A stretch of DNA of 7,055 bases, from positions 1-7,055 of the forward strand of contig SUVZ01000197.1 of assembly GCA_015061765.1 (NCBI GenBank). Direction: 5' to 3'. Made by a program: the position numbers and the translations under genes. How positions within the stretch are numbered: position 1 is the stretch's first letter; every line of letters begins with the position of its first letter. This DNA comes from Lentisphaerota bacterium. GTDB taxonomy: Bacteria; Verrucomicrobiota; Kiritimatiellia; RFP12; UBA1067. This document shows positions 1 through 7,055 of the stretch, piece after piece. The notes below the pieces were generated by a model. It had not been told where the DNA came from. It saw nothing but the letters and a program-made list of their open reading frames with translations, and searched no databases.

Positions 1-2568
1 GAGTCCGAGCTTGTGGCAGAACGCCACGGAGACCGGATCACCGCCGTGCTCGCCGCAGATTCCGCAGTGGAGCATCGGACGGGTCTTCTTGCCGTCGGTG
101 ACCGCCATCTCCATGAGCTTGCCCACTCCGCTCTGGTCGAGACGCGCGAAGGGATCGTTCTCGAAAATCTTCTTGTCGTAGTACGAGCCGAGGAACTTTC
201 CTGCGTCGTCGCGAGAGAATCCGTAGGTCATCTGCGTGAGATCGTTCGTACCGAAGCAGAAGAACTCGGCCTCGTCGGCGATCTCTCCCGCCGTAAGCGC
301 TGCACGCGGAATCTCGATCATCGTGCCGACCTCGTAGTTGAGCTTGATCTCCGCGGCCTGAATCTCGTCGTTGGCGACGTGCACGACTATGTCCTTCACG
401 AACTTGAACTCCTTCGGATCGCCCGTGAGGGGAATCATGATCTCGGGCTTCACGTTCCAGCCCTTGTGACGCTTCTGCGTATTGATGGCGGCGCGGATGA
501 CGGCCTTCGTCTGCATCACGGCTATCTCAGGGTACGTTACGCAGAGGCGGCAGCCGCGGTGCCCCATCATCGGGTTGATCTCGTGAAGGTTGTCGATGAT
601 CTCCTTGATGCGGGAAATTGGCTTGTGCTGAGCCTTGGCGAGAAGCGCGATCTCCTCTTCGCTGTGCGGCACGAACTCGTGGAGCGGCGGATCGAGGAAG
701 CGGATCGTGACGGGCTGGCCATCAAGGGCCTCGAAAAGCTGCTCAAAGTCGTCCTGCTGGTACGGGAGAATCTTGGCGAGCGCAAGGCGGCGCTCCTCGA
801 CCGTATCGGCGCATATCATCTCGCGGAATGCGGAAATGCGGCTCTGGGAGAAGAACATGTGCTCCGTACGGCAAAGGCCAATGCCCTCCGCTCCGAGTTC
901 ACGCGCCTTGCGGGCGTCGCGGGGCGTGTCGGCGTTGGTGCGCACCTTCAGGCGGCGGAACTTGTCCGCCCACATCATGATGCGGCCGAATTCGCCTGCG
1001 ATCGTCGCGTCGACCGTCGGTATGACACCGTCGTAGATGTTGCCGGTGGAACCGTCGATGGATATCCAGTCGCCCTCGCGGAACGTCTTGCCGCCGAGGA
1101 TGAACTTCTTGCCCTCCTCGTCCATCTGGATCTCCTGACATCCGGAAACGCAGCATTCGCCCATGCCGCGCGCGACTACGGCCGCGTGGCTCGTCATTCC
1201 GCCGCGAACCGTGAGAATGCCCTGTGCAGCCTTCATGCCCTCAATGTCCTCGGGGCTTGTCTCGAGACGCACGAGCACAACCTTCTCGCCGCGTTCCTTC
1301 CACGCCTTTGCGTCGTCGGCACTGAACACGACCTTGCCGCAGGCTGCCCCAGGAGATGCTGGAAGGCCTCGTCCCACCGGAACGGCGCGCTTGAGGGCCA
1401 CGGTGTCGAACTGCGGATGCAGAAGCGTATCGAGATTGCGCGGCTCTACCATGAGAACAGCCTCCTGCTCCGTGCGCATGCCCTCGTCCACGAGGTCGCA
1501 CGCGATCTTGAGCGCGGCCTTTGCGGTGCGCTTGCCGTTGCGAGTCTGGAGCATGAAGAGCTTTCCGTTCTCTATGGTGAACTCCATGTCCTGCATGTCG
1601 CGGTAGTGCTTCTCGAGTTTCGCGCACACTTCGGTGAACTGCTTGAACACCTTGGGCATGACCTCTTCCATCTTGGCGATCGGCATCGGGGTGCGGACGC
1701 CTGCGACGACATCCTCGCCCTGCGCGTTGATGAGGAACTCGCCCATCAGTCTGCGTTCGCCGGTGGCGGGATCTCGCGTGAACGCGACGCCCGTACCGGA
1801 CTCGTCGTTGAGGTTTCCGAACGCCATCATCTGTACGTTGACTGCCGTCCCCCAGCTGTAGGGGATGTCGTTGTCGCGGCGGTAGACGTTCGCGCGCGGA
1901 TTGTCCCAGCTGCGGAACACGGCCTGGATCGCCGCAAAGAGCTGCTCCTTCGCGTCATTGGGGAAGTCCTTGCCGATCGCGGACTTGTACTCGGCCTTGA
2001 ACATTGCGGCGAGCTCCTTGAGGTCGTCGGCTGTGAGCTCGACGTCGAGCTTGACGCCCTTCTTCTCCTTGACTTCGTCGATGAGCTTCTCGAAGTGCTT
2101 TTTGCCGACTTCCATGACGACGTCGGAGAACATCTGGATGAAGCGGCGGTAGCAGTCCCAGGCCCAGCGCGGGTTCTTGGTCTGCTCTGCGAGTGAGTTC
2201 ACTACCGTCTCGTTAAGGCCGAGATTGAGGATCGTATCCATCATGCCCGGCATGGATGCGCGCGCGCCGGAGCGCACGGACACGAGAAGCGGGTTCTTGG
2301 CGTCGCCGAACTTCTTTCCCGCCGACTTCTCGAGCTTATCGATGTACTCGAGCACCTGCTGCTTGATGTCGTCTCCGATCTTCTTGCCGTCATCATAGTA
2401 GCGGGTACAGGCCTCGGTCGTAATCGTGAACCCTTGCGGGACAGGCAACCCCAACGATGCCATCTCCGCAAGGTTGGCCCCCTTGCCGCCGAGGATGTTG
2501 CGCATTTCTGCATTGCCTTCGGTCGCACCTGCGCCGAAGAAATATACGTATCTGGTATTTTCTGCCAT
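1..2568 (-). CDS. ppdK: Pyruvate, phosphate dikinase (3' end cut off by window edge)
   Basis: PPDK interconverts pyruvate + ATP + phosphate and PEP + AMP + pyrophosphate in the cytosol; in anaerobes it serves pyrophosphate-linked glycolysis or gluconeogenesis. The frame is open from ATG at 2568 to the window edge: 856 residues without a stop. The N-terminal ATP-grasp domain shows GGKGANLAEM (about residues 27-36), SVRSGARASMPGMMDT (from about 96) and a later GVAFTRDPATGE. The swivelling phosphohistidine domain has GGMTSHAAVVARG with catalytic His461 (codon 1186-1188). The C-terminal TIM-barrel has GLCRTEHMF with Arg567, NPMMGHRGCRL, FGTNDLTQM and GICGEHGG with catalytic Cys838 (55-57). All are offset by +6 from the well-studied Clostridium symbiosum enzyme (874 residues), so only about 24 C-terminal residues should be missing. 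The ribosome binding site is a weak purine-rich stretch (AGAGAG) just before the start. It forms its own transcription unit. No frameshift or missing catalytic residue is seen. Confidence 0.97.
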   Translation of the reverse strand, partial: MAENTRYVYFFGAGATEGNAEMRNILGGKGANLAEMASLGLPVPQGFTITTEACTRYYDDGKKIGDDIKQQVLEYIDKLEKSAGKKFGDAKNPLLVSVRSGARASMPGMMDTILNLGLNETVVNSLAEQTKNPRWAWDCYRRFIQMFSDVVMEVGKKHFEKLIDEVKEKKGVKLDVELTADDLKELAAMFKAEYKSAIGKDFPNDAKEQLFAAIQAVFRSWDNPRANVYRRDNDIPYSWGTAVNVQMMAFGNLNDESGTGVAFTRDPATGERRLMGEFLINAQGEDVVAGVRTPMPIAKMEEVMPKVFKQFTEVCAKLEKHYRDMQDMEFTIENGKLFMLQTRNGKRTAKAALKIACDLVDEGMRTEQEAVLMVEPRNLDTLLHPQFDTVALKRAVPVGRGLPASPGAACGKVVFSADDAKAWKERGEKVVLVRLETSPEDIEGMKAAQGILTVRGGMTSHAAVVARGMGECCVSGCQEIQMDEEGKKFILGGKTFREGDWISIDGSTGNIYDGVIPTVDATIAGEFGRIMMWADKFRRLKVRTNADTPRDARKARELGAEGIGLCRTEHMFFSQSRISAFREMICADTVEERRLALAKILPYQQDDFEQLFEALDGQPVTIRFLDPPLHEFVPHSEEEIALLAKAQHKPISRIKEIIDNLHEINPMMGHRGCRLCVTYPEIAVMQTKAVIRAAINTQKRHKGWNVKPEIMIPLTGDPKEFKFVKDIVVHVANDEIQAAEIKLNYEVGTMIEIPRAALTAGEIADEAEFFCFGTNDLTQMTYGFSRDDAGKFLGSYYDKKIFENDPFARLDQSGVGKLMEMAVTDGKKTRPMLHCGICGEHGGDPVSVAFCHKLGL

Positions 2569-2700: not shown

Positions 2701-2742
2701 CAAAGGAAATCCCCGGAAATCCGCACCCGCGGACACCGGGGA
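2701..2742 (-). terminator. Predicted intrinsic terminator of the feoA-feoB-barrel unit
   Basis: Reading the minus strand, TCCCCGG (2736-2742) pairs with CCGGGGA (2710-2716). An inner stem GTCCGC/GCGGAT (2729-2734 with 2719-2724, one G-U pair) closes a GGGT loop, with a small asymmetric internal bulge (1 nt against 2 nt) between the two stems. The hairpin is followed by the T-rich tract TTTCCTTTG (2701-2709), which is interrupted by two C residues. The plus strand has no T-run after the hairpin, so it acts for minus-strand transcripts. It sits 33 bp past the stop codon of the barrel gene and ahead of the ppdK promoter. Confidence 0.72.
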
Positions 2743-2775: not shown

Positions 2776-3753
2776 TCAGAACGTGGCGGTGATCGAAAGA
2801 CCTCCGACTACGTTCCATGTCTTGTCGCAGCCTGCGCCCCACTCGCCGTTGTATGCAGCGGCGGCCTTGCGCATGTTGCCGTCGAACCAATAGTCGTAGT
2901 AGGCGACATATGCACCGAACGTGAGCCAATCGGTGATGGCATATTCGAGATCGACACGCAGAGTCGTATCCATCAGGCCGCCATGGTCGAAACCTTCAAC
3001 CTTCTCAAGTTCGGAGAAATAGCCCTTTGTGCGGAGGGAGTTGCCCAAGCCCTGTCCGACCGCCGGACGGAGCGTGAGGCTTTCCGCAAGCTCAAAGGTG
3101 TGGCCGAGCTCGAAATATACGTAAGTGCCGTCGTCAGCCATGATGTCGCGTTCGATTGCGAGTGTAGGCTCAAGCCAGAGATCTCCGAGCGAGAACTCAA
3201 GGTTGAGATACTGGGTGTCGCCGACCTCCCCTTCATAGCGGGGAAGATATTCGTACATGTAGCTGAAGTCGACACCGAGCGTGCCGAACGTCTCGCCGAG
3301 ATCGAACTCATGCGCAAGACCGACCATCGCATCGAGCGTCGTGTATTCGCCGGCACGGTTGCCGTAGCCGCCGCGCTTGCCGTTGCCCTTCGTGACGTCA
3401 AAGATCGCCTCGACACCGAAATACACCCAGTCGAAGAATGTCACTGATGCGTTGGGAACGATAATCGGGTCCTTGCCGTCAATCACGCCGTACGTCATAT
3501 AGCGGGAATCGAAGCCGACACCGAATTCCGCAGAAACGATTGGCGTTTCGTTGAACGAGATTCCGGCTCCCGGTTCATAGCTCCATCCGGAGCTTCCACC
3601 GCAGTCTGCGCATTTGCACGATTCGCTGGTGCAGGCGCATCCGGTGGTGCATTTGCAGGCATCCTTGCCGCATTTGCAGTTCGCGTTCTGGGCGTATAGC
3701 CCCCCTGTCAGCGCGACGATTGCCGCCGCGCCCATGATTTTCATTGTTTTCAT
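2776..3753 (-). CDS. Outer-membrane beta-barrel protein with a cysteine-rich N-terminus, third gene of the feo operon
   Basis: The product has 325 residues. Start ATG at 3753 was chosen because a good ribosome binding site (AAAGGA) precedes it and it opens a classic signal peptide: MKTMK, a hydrophobic core, then likely cleavage after LYA (residue 21). The mature protein begins with a Cys-rich stretch (C26 to C51, nine Cys), then a short Gly/Ser linker. From about residue 60 to the end follow alternating hydrophobic/polar segments rich in Tyr, Phe, Trp and Gly, consistent with roughly 12 or more beta strands, ending in SITATF. A terminal Phe is the usual sorting signal for the BAM machinery. 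The segment VSAEFGVGFDSRYMTYG followed by DGKDPIIVPNASV vaguely recalls TorF-type putative porins; I cannot confirm the family. It follows feoB by 14 bp, so a role in Fe(II) or other metal passage across the outer membrane is inferred, not shown. There is one more Cys near the end (C309). The Cys at 26 has no lipobox before it, so this is not a lipoprotein. Confidence 0.88.
   Translation of the reverse strand: MKTMKIMGAAAIVALTGGLYAQNANCKCGKDACKCTTGCACTSESCKCADCGGSSGWSYEPGAGISFNETPIVSAEFGVGFDSRYMTYGVIDGKDPIIVPNASVTFFDWVYFGVEAIFDVTKGNGKRGGYGNRAGEYTTLDAMVGLAHEFDLGETFGTLGVDFSYMYEYLPRYEGEVGDTQYLNLEFSLGDLWLEPTLAIERDIMADDGTYVYFELGHTFELAESLTLRPAVGQGLGNSLRTKGYFSELEKVEGFDHGGLMDTTLRVDLEYAITDWLTFGAYVAYYDYWFDGNMRKAAAAYNGEWGAGCDKTWNVVGGLSITATF
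3601..3678 (-). repeat. Duplicated 13-codon Cys-x-Cys unit (metallothionein-like) inside the barrel gene
   Basis: Codons 26-38 (3640-3678) and 39-51 (3601-3639) of the barrel gene form two units of the same spacing: C-x-C-x4-C-x-C-x3 and C-x-C-x4-C-x-C-x2-C. The nine cysteines are C26, C28, C33, C35, C39, C41, C46, C48 and C51. Three of the four CxC pairs read CKC and use the identical DNA string TGCAAATGC, which suggests growth by small duplications. Dense CxC spacing with small and charged residues between is typical of metal-thiolate proteins. Metal binding is inferred from spacing alone; disulfide bonding is an alternative in an oxidising periplasm. Confidence 0.8.
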
Positions 3754-3763
3754 TGTTGTTTTT

Positions 3764-3769
3764 TCCTTT
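3764..3769 (-). promoter_or_regulatory. Ribosome binding site of the barrel gene, overlapping the feoB stop codon
   Basis: The minus strand reads TAAAGGA, where TAA (3768-3770) is the feoB stop and AAAGGA (3764-3769) is the Shine-Dalgarno sequence of the next gene, with 10 nt between the GG and the ATG at 3753. Ribosomes ending feoB would sit directly on this site, so translation of the two genes is probably coupled. It also decides the start codon, since no such site precedes the in-frame upstream ATG codons inside feoB. Confidence 0.8.
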
Positions 3770-6071
3770 AGATCATATCGATCCGGTGCCTCTTTCCGTA
3801 GCACCAAAAGCCGCTGAACATTGCGGCGAGAATGCCGGTTCCTATGCAGAACCAGAGACTGCTGTGGCTTACCATCACAGCATGGTAGATTGTGGCGACA
3901 CTCCAACCGATGACGGTGAGATATCCCACGAACACGGCTCCGTAACCCTTGCCGACCTCACGGAATACGGTTCCGGTAGCGGCGATGCACGGCACATAGA
4001 GAAGGACGAACAGAAGGAACGCGAACGCCTGATGGAAGCCTTTGGAGAAGTGTTTGCGCAGTCCGGCGATCGTGGCTTCGTTTGATTCCTTCTCTTCACC
4101 CTCTACAACATCTTCGGCGGCGCCGGAGAAGCCAAGCGGATCAAGAATCGCAGAACCGGCATCCATGAGATTCGCGGGTATGGAGGCGAACGCCTCCTTC
4201 AGTCCACCGATGAGCGAATAGGGCTTTTCTTCCTCGGCTGGTTTATCCCCCTCCTTGGACTCCTTTGCGGCATCACCCTGTCCGTAAAGACCGTTGAGAG
4301 TGCCGATGACAGCCTCCTTGGCGAAAAGGCCGGTGAATATCGATACGCTTGCCTGCCAGTTGTCCTTCTCGACTCCAATGGGCTCAAACACCGGGGTGAT
4401 GCTCCTGCCCACAACCGAGAGGACTGACTTTTCGCTGTCCTCGTTGCCGATGGAGCCGTCGGTACCGACGGTATTGAGGATACCGAGCACGAGAACCATG
4501 GGAACGATGAACTTACCCGCACGCCATATGAAGATTTTCAATCTCTCCCATGTATGGAGGAAAATGTGCCTTGGGCGCGGCATGTGGTACGGAGGCAGTT
4601 CCATGATGAAATGCGTGGGAGCACCCTGGAACAGAGTGTGCTTCATGATGAGTCCCGTCACTATCCCCAGAACGATCCCGCACATGTACAGGGCAAAGAT
4701 AAGCGTACCGGGATTCTCCGGACAGAAAGCGACCCCGAACAGCACCCATACCGGAAGTTTCGCGCTGCAGCTCATGAACGGAGTCATGAATATCGTGAGC
4801 AGCCGATCCCGCTTCGATTCGAGCGTGCGTGTAGCCATGATTGCGGGAACGGAACATCCGAATCCCACAAGCATCGGCACGAAGCTTTTGCCGGGAAGAC
4901 CGATCCAGCGCATGAAACGGTCCATCACAAACGCAGCACGCGCCATATAACCGGAGTCCTCAAGCACCGAAAGACAAAGGAACATGAAGCCGACCGGCGG
5001 CAGGAACGTCGCAACAGTCTGAAGCGCCGAACCTACACCGTTCGCCAAGATCGCGGTCAGCCAATCCGGAGCACCGACGGAACCAAGGAGCTCCGCCATG
5101 CCGCTCACGAAAAGCGTGTCCCCTGCTATGTCGAAGAAGTCGATGAATGCCCCGCCTATTACCTGTGTGACCCAGAACACCATATACATCACACCGAGAA
5201 ATATAGGAATGCCGAGGAATCGGTTGATCACGAACTTGTCAATCTTTTCGGAAAGGAACACCTTGTCCGGAACAGTGCGGACAACGTCCTTCACAAGACC
5301 GGCGATTACCCCGTAGCGCGTTTCGGCAAGGACCACGTCCGGCGGATCGCCGAGGACATCGCTGCAGCGTTTCACCGCCCCGTCGATCACCTCCGGAGCC
5401 ATGTCGCGGTGACGTTCAAGCTGGCGGCGGATCAGAGGATCGCCCTCTATCGCCTTGAGTGCCACCCAGCGGGCATCGACATTGTAGTGCTCCGCCGTCT
5501 TAACCGAAGCCGAGGCGAGTATGTCGATCTCCTGCTCGAGTTCGTTCGGGAACTCTATCGGAACGCGCGGAACCTTTGGCGCGGAGATCGCATCGTCCAG
5601 AAGGGCGCGTAGTTTCGCCACATCCCTCGAATCCGTCGCGTTTACGCCGATCACCGGCACACCAAGGTGCTTGGAGAGATGGTCGAGATCGACGGAAAGC
5701 CTGCGCTGACGGGCGATATCCATCATGGTGACGACGATTACCATCGGCACCTTCAGTTCGCACATGAGAAGTGTGAGATAGAGGTTGCGCTCTATCGCCG
5801 TGGCGTCGATGACGTTTATGTAGAGATCGGCCTCGTGCGAAAGGATGTACTCAAGGCTCGCCTTCTCGTCTTCGCTCGCCGCCGTAAGGGAATATATTCC
5901 GGGAAGATCGACGATCTTGACTTCGCCGGACTTGTCGAGTTTAAATTCACCCTCCTTCTTCTCCACCGTAACGCCCGGCCAGTTGCCGATATGCTGATGA
6001 GAACCGGTAAGACCGTTGAACACGGTCGTCTTTCCGCAGTTCGGATTTCCCACAAGACCGACAGTCTTCAT
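3768..6071 (-). CDS. feoB: Ferrous iron transport protein B (Fe(II) permease with N-terminal G domain)
   Basis: FeoB is the inner-membrane Fe(II) importer of the Feo system. The product has 767 residues, normal for the family. The G domain shows G1 GNPNCGKTT (8-16), the switch-I region with PGVT (32-35), G3 DLPG (55-58) and a G4 motif that reads TMMD (115-118) where NxxD is usual. A helical regulatory domain follows to about 275. The membrane part has two Gate regions carrying the conserved cysteines: GFGCSVP (C406) and PFMSCSAKLP (C435). A third conserved Cys lies in LLYVPCIAATG (C695). LEDSGYMARAAF (370-381) is a further family hallmark. A charged Lys/Glu-rich linker lies in the loop around 600-625. 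The start ATG at 6071 overlaps the feoA stop (ATGA) and has AAGGGAG (6079-6085) 7 nt upstream, inside the feoA coding sequence. No feoC gene follows; the next gene is the barrel protein. Confidence 0.98.
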   Translation of the reverse strand: MKTVGLVGNPNCGKTTVFNGLTGSHQHIGNWPGVTVEKKEGEFKLDKSGEVKIVDLPGIYSLTAASEDEKASLEYILSHEADLYINVIDATAIERNLYLTLLMCELKVPMVIVVTMMDIARQRRLSVDLDHLSKHLGVPVIGVNATDSRDVAKLRALLDDAISAPKVPRVPIEFPNELEQEIDILASASVKTAEHYNVDARWVALKAIEGDPLIRRQLERHRDMAPEVIDGAVKRCSDVLGDPPDVVLAETRYGVIAGLVKDVVRTVPDKVFLSEKIDKFVINRFLGIPIFLGVMYMVFWVTQVIGGAFIDFFDIAGDTLFVSGMAELLGSVGAPDWLTAILANGVGSALQTVATFLPPVGFMFLCLSVLEDSGYMARAAFVMDRFMRWIGLPGKSFVPMLVGFGCSVPAIMATRTLESKRDRLLTIFMTPFMSCSAKLPVWVLFGVAFCPENPGTLIFALYMCGIVLGIVTGLIMKHTLFQGAPTHFIMELPPYHMPRPRHIFLHTWERLKIFIWRAGKFIVPMVLVLGILNTVGTDGSIGNEDSEKSVLSVVGRSITPVFEPIGVEKDNWQASVSIFTGLFAKEAVIGTLNGLYGQGDAAKESKEGDKPAEEEKPYSLIGGLKEAFASIPANLMDAGSAILDPLGFSGAAEDVVEGEEKESNEATIAGLRKHFSKGFHQAFAFLLFVLLYVPCIAATGTVFREVGKGYGAVFVGYLTVIGWSVATIYHAVMVSHSSLWFCIGTGILAAMFSGFWCYGKRHRIDMI

Positions 6072-6313
6072 TTCACATCTCCCTTCTCAAGAACTTTAAC
6101 CTTGATCACGCTGACCTCGTCGCGACGGAGGGAAAGATGAAATCCCCTGACCGCAAGCTCAAACGGGTCTCCCAGCGGAGCTACGTTCAATATCTTGATC
6201 TGCACCCCGCGCGTCATACCGAGCGCAAGCAGCTTGGCGCGGTACGCCGCATTGCCGAGCCTGTAGCCGGTGATTTCGGCCATTTGCCCTTTTTTCAATT
6301 GATCGAGTGTCAT
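6068..6313 (-). CDS. feoA: Ferrous iron transport protein A (small SH3-like partner of FeoB)
   Basis: FeoA is a small cytosolic protein with an SH3-like fold that assists FeoB. The product has 81 residues, typical for the family. Family hallmarks are LGMTRGVQIKIL in the middle and APLGDPFELAVRGFHLSLR towards the end. I chose ATG at 6313 because AAGGA (6322-6326) stands 8 nt upstream and the protein then starts MTLDQLKKGQ, the usual beginning for FeoA. A longer in-frame reading from 6373 would place the start upstream of the predicted transcription start and is rejected. It is the first gene of the operon and overlaps feoB by 4 bp (ATGA), so translation is probably coupled. Confidence 0.96.
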   Translation of the reverse strand: MTLDQLKKGQMAEITGYRLGNAAYRAKLLALGMTRGVQIKILNVAPLGDPFELAVRGFHLSLRRDEVSVIKVKVLEKGDVK

Positions 6314-6354
6314 TTCGCTAATCCTTTTGCCTCTTAAAAAATAAGACGCGGCGA

Positions 6355-6383
6355 AGTTTACCAAAACTAACAACCCTTGTCAA
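6355..6383 (-). promoter_or_regulatory. Predicted sigma70-type promoter of the feoA-feoB-barrel operon
   Basis: A perfect -35 box TTGACA (6378-6383) is followed after exactly 17 bp by the -10 box TAAACT (6355-6360, four of six matches). Transcription should start near 6348, giving a leader of about 35 nt to the feoA ATG. I see no recognisable Fur box of the GATAATGATAATCATTATC type. A short inverted repeat, AGTTT-N4-AAACT (6355-6368), covers the -10 box. Another, AAGTT-N10-AACTT (6389-6408), lies just upstream of the -35 box. Either could be an operator for a metal-responsive repressor, but both are short and lie in AT-rich DNA. Confidence 0.72.
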
Positions 6384-6427
6384 AGAAAAAGTTCACCTGA
6401 TTTAACTTATTTCCGGTGGAGGTGGAC

Positions 6428-6510: not shown

Positions 6511-7055
6511 TCAGCCAAGCACCTTGGCGATGCGGCCGACTGCCTCCTCGACGTTCTCGCGGGAGTTGAATGCAGAGATGCGAATGTAGCCCTGTCCGTT
6601 CCGGCCAAAGCCGGCGCCGGGCGTCGTGACGACATTGGCCTCGTTGAGGAGCCTGTCGAAGAAGTCCCAGCTGTCGCCCTTGACGTTCACCCAGAGGTAG
6701 GGGGAGTCGGTGCCGCCGATGACGTCGTAACCGAACCCCTTCAGAGCGTCCTTGACGATCTTGGCGTTTCCGAGATAGAAATCGATGAGCGCCTTGGTCT
6801 GGGCCTGCCCTTCAGGCGTGTGGACCGCCTCGGCTCCGCGCTGGGTGATGTAGCTGCAGCCGTTGAACTTCGTCGTCTGGCGGCGCGTCCAGAAGGGGCG
6901 CAGCTCGACCGGAGTGCCGTCGGCCTTCCACGCGACGAGTCCCTTCGGAACGACCGTGTAGCCGCAGCGGATGCCGGTGAAGCCGGCCGTCTTCGAATAG
7001 CTGCGGAACTCGATCGCGCAGGAACGCGCGCCGGAGCACTCGTAGATGGAGTGGG
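6511..7055 (-). CDS. dapL: LL-diaminopimelate aminotransferase (5' part cut off by window edge)
   Basis: DapL is a PLP-dependent class I/II aminotransferase that turns tetrahydrodipicolinate directly into LL-diaminopimelate with glutamate as amino donor. It bypasses the succinyl or acetyl steps of the lysine and peptidoglycan pathway. About 180 C-terminal residues are visible out of some 410 usual for the family, ending at TGA (6511-6513). The fragment carries the PLP-lysine motif [19 protein letters not shown] (Lys codon 6991-6993), then [50 protein letters not shown] and a final helix ending [14 protein letters not shown] followed by G(Y/W)TVVP is characteristic of DapL rather than of general aspartate aminotransferases. 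The reading frame is intact throughout. A strong terminator follows at once, so dapL is the last gene of its unit. Confidence 0.94.

Follow-up and report, generated by a model that had tools for sequence, protein, structure and literature searches.

How ferrous iron crosses the outer membrane before FeoB carries it inward is the question raised by a three-gene locus of a Lentisphaerota bacterium (assembly GCA_015061765.1, contig SUVZ01000197.1). Feo imports ferrous iron in a very wide range of bacteria, and passage across the outer membrane is usually ascribed to general porins. In the 7,055 nucleotides analysed here, which we call the window, feoA and feoB are followed by the gene of a predicted outer-membrane barrel. 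We consider it probable that these genes encode a two-membrane uptake system in which the barrel is a channel of the outer membrane dedicated to supplying FeoB with Fe(II) or possibly Mn(II). The passage of metal, the choice of metal, the direction of transport and the regulator are what we infer from genetics and predicted structure. In Kiritimatiellae gut bacteria the barrel gene and feoB are usually inherited as a pair, and in many genomes the two are apparently switched on together; both points suggest that the metal has an outer door of its own.

The window has the gene arrangement described in the initial annotation. feoA and feoB overlap by ATGA, the barrel ATG lies 14 nt beyond the feoB stop, and nine cysteines (C26, 28, 33, 35, 39, 41, 46, 48 and 51) follow the putative signal peptide of the barrel protein. 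The annotation had also given the three genes a single promoter and a single terminator. The promoter stood: it is sigma-70-like (6383-6355, TTGACA-17-TAAACT, with TG ahead of the second hexamer). The terminator stood in part, as the hairpin behind the barrel gene is good (the 86-nt stretch folds at -33.7 kcal/mol, z -3.1, matched by 2 of 200 shuffles) but its T-run is poor, and a scan for consensus terminators did not pick up 2742-2710. The 14-nt gap is too short for a promoter, so in the window feoB and the barrel gene should be co-transcribed, barring a promoter within feoB itself. FeoB itself has the Pfam domains PF02421, PF07670, PF07664 and PF17910, and the window thus holds what marks a Feo system, a FeoB with G-domain, Gate and FeoB_C domains together with FeoA.

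Linkage of the barrel gene to feo

The locus search returned close relatives only, giving 37 loci in which distances were taken between tblastn alignments. A feoA or feoB gene lay within 500 nt of the barrel gene in 24 of the 37, always on the same strand (24/24), and in a 25th linked locus, L002, the feo genes were 3.6 kb away. A sample of 288 genomes of the phylum was less biased than the locus search, though centred on G001, itself included; the two sets overlap, with L001 and L012 in G001, L035 in G016 and L015 probably in G217. The barrel was matched in 28 of the 288 genomes. Twenty of these matches had E <= 1e-20, and among them the barrel was within 500 nt of feo on the same strand in 15, at 1.9 kb in G123, and unlinked in G016, G120, G225 and G252 (the G120 barrel is cut by a contig end). 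None of the 8 weaker relatives was near feo. FeoB was found in 265 of the 288 genomes, so co-occurrence alone tells little. The adjacency of feo and barrel exceeds chance.

These are the counts that the initial annotation had proposed to make. It had reasoned that its idea would suffer if homologues lay mostly away from feoAB and had no conserved Cys segment; they lie mostly beside feoAB, while the segment is indeed not conserved in the family as a whole. Its suggestion of a dedicated partner of Feo is well supported by same-strand linkage to two FeoB types and, for part of the genomes, by a promoter element common to feo and unlinked barrels. The partner FeoB in the 25 linked loci was about 80% identical to that of the window (7 loci, type 1) or about 35% identical (18 loci, type 2). 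The barrel gene follows feoB in most loci and precedes feoA in L016, L029, L030, L032, L046 and L051. Barrels only about 30% identical are still found behind feoB (L047-L050, L052-L054) or, in L051, ahead of feoA.

Contig ends limit how far a barrel can be called unlinked: L011 and L025 start at one, and L024 and L026 stop 104 nt and 434 nt past the barrel. We rejected another common partner for the unlinked barrels, as their neighbours, judged by eye, vary (flagellar, dTDP-sugar, mutS, rplS-like) and no second metal transporter was noticed among them. G001, G011 and G295 have extra barrel copies away from feo (L012/L084, L083 and L071, respectively), and tandem copies follow feoB at L022:6001-8115 and G292:C16:35664-38218. 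Three proteins (P0018, P0020, P0022) have a FeoA-like start running into a barrel, as if the intervening feoB had been lost; they come from short metagenome contigs and could be assembly artefacts.

A promoter element common to feo operons and barrel genes

Ahead of feoA, TTGAC- followed by GTTAG....GTAAACTT is common to the window and five relatives of type 1 (L001, L003, L004, L005, L009). The -10 region of the window and the spacer before it are kept in five relatives, and GTTAGnTnTGGTAAACTT is present in many feoA promoters. The same element string also stands ahead of barrel genes away from feo. A regular expression for the element matched 18 times in 736 kb of partly overlapping loci, and all 18 matches lay ahead of feo operons or barrel genes and were directed towards the gene.

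A matrix built from ten feoA promoters only was run over both strands of the 37 loci and the window. It gave 21 scores above 24: the ten training sites, the barrel-first operon of L016, nine unlinked barrels and the L005 site once more, on its reverse strand. The next best score, 18.9, was in L006 between feoB and the barrel, and no unrelated site exceeded 24. The window's element, one of the ten training sites, had the top score in the window, 32.2. The nine barrels (L013, L014, L018, L020, L021, L024, L025, L027, L035) are nine of 11 unlinked ones, L011, cut before its start, being uncounted. Among the 25 linked loci the element was found in 11, ten by the matrix and L002 by a pattern search of its genome, G002; L007, L017 and L034 have no visible upstream DNA, as the contig begins within feoB. 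Weaker sites, scoring 8 to 13, precede feoA in L019, L023 and L033. Upstream of the barrel in L029 and L030, GTTAGCCTAAG takes the place of the usual element, and we take it to resemble a DtxR core.

The pattern search covered the whole of 17 genomes with the barrel at up to 2 mismatches. Sites with at most one mismatch preceded feo or a barrel gene in 11 of 12 cases, those with two in 2 of 7. The barrel and feoB are on different contigs in 6 of the 17 genomes. G006, G007 and G010 each had exactly two sites at this level, one at feo and one at an unlinked barrel, the feo site lying about 310-330 nt ahead of feoA with a small FeoA-like gene in between. Judged from these sites, the element is a link between barrel and feo in part of the family, and there a striking one.

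Two further observations concern the genes behind the element. Type-2 feo operons in L015, L031, L037 and L116-L118 start with an extra small FeoA-like gene right after it. A second feoA with the same element, its product 95% identical to the window FeoA, lies at G003:C130:5394 (L105:2395), at a contig end and possibly in a mixed bin.

At several feoA promoters the site forms a long inverted repeat with the ends GTTAG...CTAAC, in which 12 of 15 pairs match in L001 and 13 of 15 in L005. The window's 31-bp symmetric extension, reaching 6341, is degenerate (7 of 15 pairs), and L036 has 4 of 15. A Fur site was considered and rejected, as the FUR domain PF01475 is missing in 16 of the 17 barrel genomes (present in one). 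Sixteen of the 17 each have a single copy of the DtxR-family domain PF02742. We therefore prefer a DtxR-family regulator, and such a repressor may act at the element.

The barrel and its cysteine tail

The window barrel protein matched no Pfam family at cut-off, and its score with the TorF family of putative porins (TIGR02001) was 17.5 bits, under the cut-off of 47.15; four of 36 members of the barrel family matched TorF weakly (best E 3.4e-4). Profile matches of the same 36 members included neither the LbtU family NF033652 nor, at E 0.1, a CopB/PcoB-type Pfam family. A profile comparison of the barrel family with LbtU gave a probability of 7.5, with the alignment confined to signal-peptide columns. 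Sequence kinship to solved structures was sought and none was found.

Structure prediction, which the initial annotation had suggested, gave a barrel of 12 strands, with a predicted local distance difference test (pLDDT) value of at least 90 for 160 residues, a disordered Cys tail, and a low-confidence helix at residues 3-17 in the signal-peptide region. The core is strongly acidic: its net charge ranged from -10 to -26 (median -22) in 39 sequences, and its invariant residues are 14 D/E against 4 R. Specially conserved outer loops were looked for and rejected, majority identity being 0.729 in loops and 0.775 in strands, with loop 1 alone at 0.93. The model points to an outer-membrane protein whose barrel would be negative enough to favour cations.

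The best solved match in Foldseek was PcoB (7pge), at a template-modelling (TM) score of 0.45 by query length. In VIA-align many barrels were close and PcoB was tenth by Z; as FapF, autotransporters and KdgM rank above it, PcoB serves as an analogy only. Its description in PMC9210255, in the parts available, is of a 12-strand barrel with an electronegative pore, the N-terminus being flexible, and the window protein resembles it in its 12-strand model, its strongly negative barrel and its flexible N-terminal segment. The two differ in that the gene partner here is FeoB and not copper genes, and in that the tail here is Cys-rich and optional; other solved barrels, moreover, fit the window model equally well or better.

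The tail was followed on a tree, built by a quick method, of 145 sequences from the 37 loci, the window and 120 of 739 relatives among the matches listed; the tree excludes P0001, which is the window's protein, L011 for want of the motif, and 12 proteins whose N-termini were truncated or odd. Of the 145, 27 carry a tail of 5 or more Cys. The most parsimonious history of the tail takes 15 changes (25.2 with shuffled labels), and well-supported branches force at least 7 of them. Only L001, L002 and L019 among the 25 feo-linked loci have it. These frequencies imply that the system does not depend on the tail for its working. P0006 has the window's tail on a core that groups with L003 and L004, and the tailed L001 and tailless P0053 have nearly equal cores, so the N-terminus acts like an exchangeable cassette. 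Where the tail exists it is well kept: in nine distinct tails of the window's clade the Cys columns were 99% identical and the other columns 77%. The initial annotation had read the tail as a part that may capture or hand over metal, and this half of its reading is the weaker one; the tail is real and its cysteines are kept where it is present, but its absence from 118 of the 145 makes it optional. No metallothionein profile matched the window protein, and one of the 36 members matched PF12749 at E 0.037.

A hydrophobic stretch with positive residues before a Cys-rich end places that end, by the positive-inside rule, probably in the cytoplasm. Behind feoB, 15 of the 18 linked loci of type 2 encode a small Cys-rich protein with one such hydrophobic stretch; none turned up with this filter in the 7 linked loci of type 1 (the window stood outside it). 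Four of these proteins were compared with PF12669 (FeoB_associated): that of L006 scored 34.1 bits, over the cut-off of 27, and the others 11 to 16. The window barrel's tail had no match to the PF12669 profile. PF12669 proteins are located behind feoB in the loci described in PMC8749426, in the parts available. They resemble the tail as Cys-rich feo accessories and differ from it in that the tail would face the periplasm. A fusion from a PF12669 protein as the origin of the tail was left unproven: the Cys end there is probably cytoplasmic, the tail comes after a signal peptide, and in L019 a small Cys-rich protein occurs beside a tailed barrel.

Table 1. Features of the feo-barrel locus in the window (all on the minus strand).
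Feature	Position	Strand	Remarks
Element, weak second copy 5' of the -35	6388..6406	-	GTTAAATCAGGTGAACTTT; matrix score 12.3; may be chance
Promoter with conserved element	6353..6383	-	-35 TTGACA 6383-6378; element GTTAGTTTTGGTAAACTTC 6371-6353; -10 TAAACT 6360-6355
feoA	6068..6313	-	81 aa; PF04023, 65.8 bits
feoB	3768..6071	-	767 aa; NF007105, 709.9 bits (cut-off 683); type 1 of two FeoB types
Outer-membrane barrel gene (predicted)	2776..3753	-	325 aa; unnamed family
Putative signal peptide, residues 1-22	3688..3753	-	By eye: K-rich start, hydrophobic stretch, LYA
Nine-Cys segment, residues 26-51	3601..3678	-	Disordered in model; optional in family
Barrel domain, residues 70-325	2779..3546	-	12 strands in model; net charge about -23
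Hairpin 3' of barrel gene	2710..2742	-	Likely weak terminator

Two partial genes flank the system and lie outside it. From reading, we take the downstream one (1..2568, minus strand) to be a pyruvate phosphate dikinase gene and the upstream one (6511..7055, minus strand) to be LL-diaminopimelate aminotransferase-like.

Alternative readings and Feo in the phylum

Our picture of the system is as follows. The barrel, as a cation-favouring channel, would admit Fe(II), possibly Mn(II), to the periplasm, and FeoB, a GTP-driven permease, would move the periplasmic metal to the cytoplasm. The barrel gene and feo would be transcribed as one operon or, where separated, often by the same kind of promoter. 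A single DtxR-family metal sensor most likely controls both, and the outer and inner steps would increase jointly on metal shortage. The Cys segment would be an accessory in the periplasm that the system can do without; perhaps it buffers metal or traps soft metals.

The feo slot can be filled by another kind of porin. We examined 20 control feoB loci in genomes of the phylum that lack this barrel, hand-picked and not random, from the FeoB matches listed. A simple gene caller gave no clean picture in L125, L127, L130, L134 and L136 and overlooked LbtU genes in L119 and L125 that a profile search recovered. An LbtU-family porin near feoB was at first recognised in five control loci (150-244 bits, against a cut-off of 90), and a profile search of the 288 genomes raised this to 7 of 20 (L119, L120, L121, L123, L125, L128, L129). 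LbtU was matched in 19 of the 288 genomes, over the cut-off in 18, and adjoins feoA or feoB in 13 of the 19 (L139, L141-L148, L152-L154, L156). These porins thus share the place beside feoAB with the barrel family and differ from it in having no profile kinship with it. No genome holds both the new barrel (28) and LbtU (19), and as chance would give only about 2 of the 288, this says little for mutual exclusion. At L133:1650-2417 a 255-aa barrel-like protein, from reading of yet another kind, is encoded immediately ahead of feoB.

That porins in the same place are named after a siderophore porin, and that the sugar-acid porins KdgM and NanC came near the top of the fold comparison, would fit a barrel that imports an iron chelate or iron-bearing small molecule, with reduction or release in the periplasm ahead of FeoB. 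We think this unlikely, as a core with a median net charge of -22 disfavours anionic chelates such as citrate and catecholates. The same architecture might instead serve Mn(II), with FeoB a manganese importer and the DtxR-family protein a manganese sensor. The regulators leave room for this, the DtxR-family domain being single and FUR missing in 16 of 17 genomes, and a figure legend of PMC8749426, a source available in part, marks Feo loci with experimentally verified activity towards Fe or Mn(II). Sequence cannot settle the metal; the window FeoB, however, exceeds the cut-off of an Fe(2+) permease model, and a manganese system seems to us rather improbable.

A general or structural porin with no metal role, carried in the operon by chance, would not be expected to be linked repeatedly to two FeoB types or to have the common element at unlinked loci. 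None of the eight weakest relatives in the phylum sample is near feo, which also counts against this reading, and we hold a bystander quite unlikely. The nine conserved thiols, where the tail exists, could mean that barrel and tail remove or trap soft metals that poison FeoB. With the tail absent from 118 of 145 relatives, and no efflux pump among the window genes as named from reading, efflux or protection is very improbable as the function of the system.

Several results weigh against a dedicated channel under common control with feo. In 12 of the 37 loci the barrel has no feo gene within reach (contig ends cut some of these loci), and the barrel is not generally needed, since FeoB is in 265 of the 288 genomes and the barrel family in 28. 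The element is missing at the matrix score used from 11 of the 22 linked loci with visible upstream DNA (L006, L008, L010, L019, L022, L023, L028, L029, L030, L032, L033) and from two of the 11 unlinked barrels (L012, L026). As it had already been seen in both groups before training, the matrix scan tests how specific the element is and does not amount to a blind prediction. The pattern search found 19 sites in 10 of the 17 genomes, and the reversed pattern gave 14, so the two-mismatch level is background and only sites with at most one mismatch count alone; the feo site of G007 has two. Seven of the 17 genomes have no site even at that level, and G014 has unrelated sites only. Of the six genomes with unlinked barrels, G009 and G016 carry one at the barrel and lack one at feo, and G012 has none. 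At the barrel sites symmetry was near shuffled values in 6 of 10, and with about half of them asymmetric the element may be a promoter type and not a repressor site. Finally, PcoB is no clear structural match, given its TM score and the rank of FapF, KdgM and others above it.

Dedicated outer-membrane metal channels have a precedent in MnoP of Bradyrhizobium, a manganese channel whose partner transporter and family differ from those here. Closest in kind is FupA-FeoB of Francisella, presented in the available parts of PMC4905997 and PMC7432831 as outer- and inner-membrane proteins for ferrous-iron transport. By that description, the only basis of comparison, the likeness is that FeoB has an outer-membrane protein as its partner for ferrous iron; the difference is that here, in a gut lineage, the barrel gene adjoins feo or has a promoter element in common with it. 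A genetic partnership with FeoB, as for FupA, was found through linkage and, in part of the genomes, the common element. FeoABI of Stenotrophomonas has an added inner-membrane protein and no barrel, as far as the accessible text of PMC9047314 goes. The main text of the Feo-evolution paper PMC8749426 nowhere mentions outer membrane, porin or barrel, and no feo-encoded outer-membrane barrel is named in the literature searched, which did not reach subscription papers. The kind of system is therefore known; the barrel family, its place beside feoAB and the common element appear to be new within that literature.

FeoB itself varies among these loci. The type-2 FeoB of L028 (L028:3432-6011, 859 aa) has an acidic insert of about 137 residues in its membrane part, with 37 D/E and 12 K/R, and gaps in tblastn alignments suggest inserts in other type-2 proteins. 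As the insert was extracted in L028 only of the 16 loci tried, we make no general claim for type-2 FeoB.

The outer step of Feo appears to have a gene of its own in these uncultured gut bacteria. The promoter element is a marker with which more members may be found, and the question of the outer step could be tested directly with one cloned barrel. We would put at about even the chances that Feo in the Verrucomicrobiota is often a two-membrane system, its channel recruited beside feoAB from at least two unrelated families, the acidic barrel and LbtU, and some genomes having a tiny regulon of feo and channel. If this is true, it would explain how Fe(II) passes the outer membrane in many members of the phylum.

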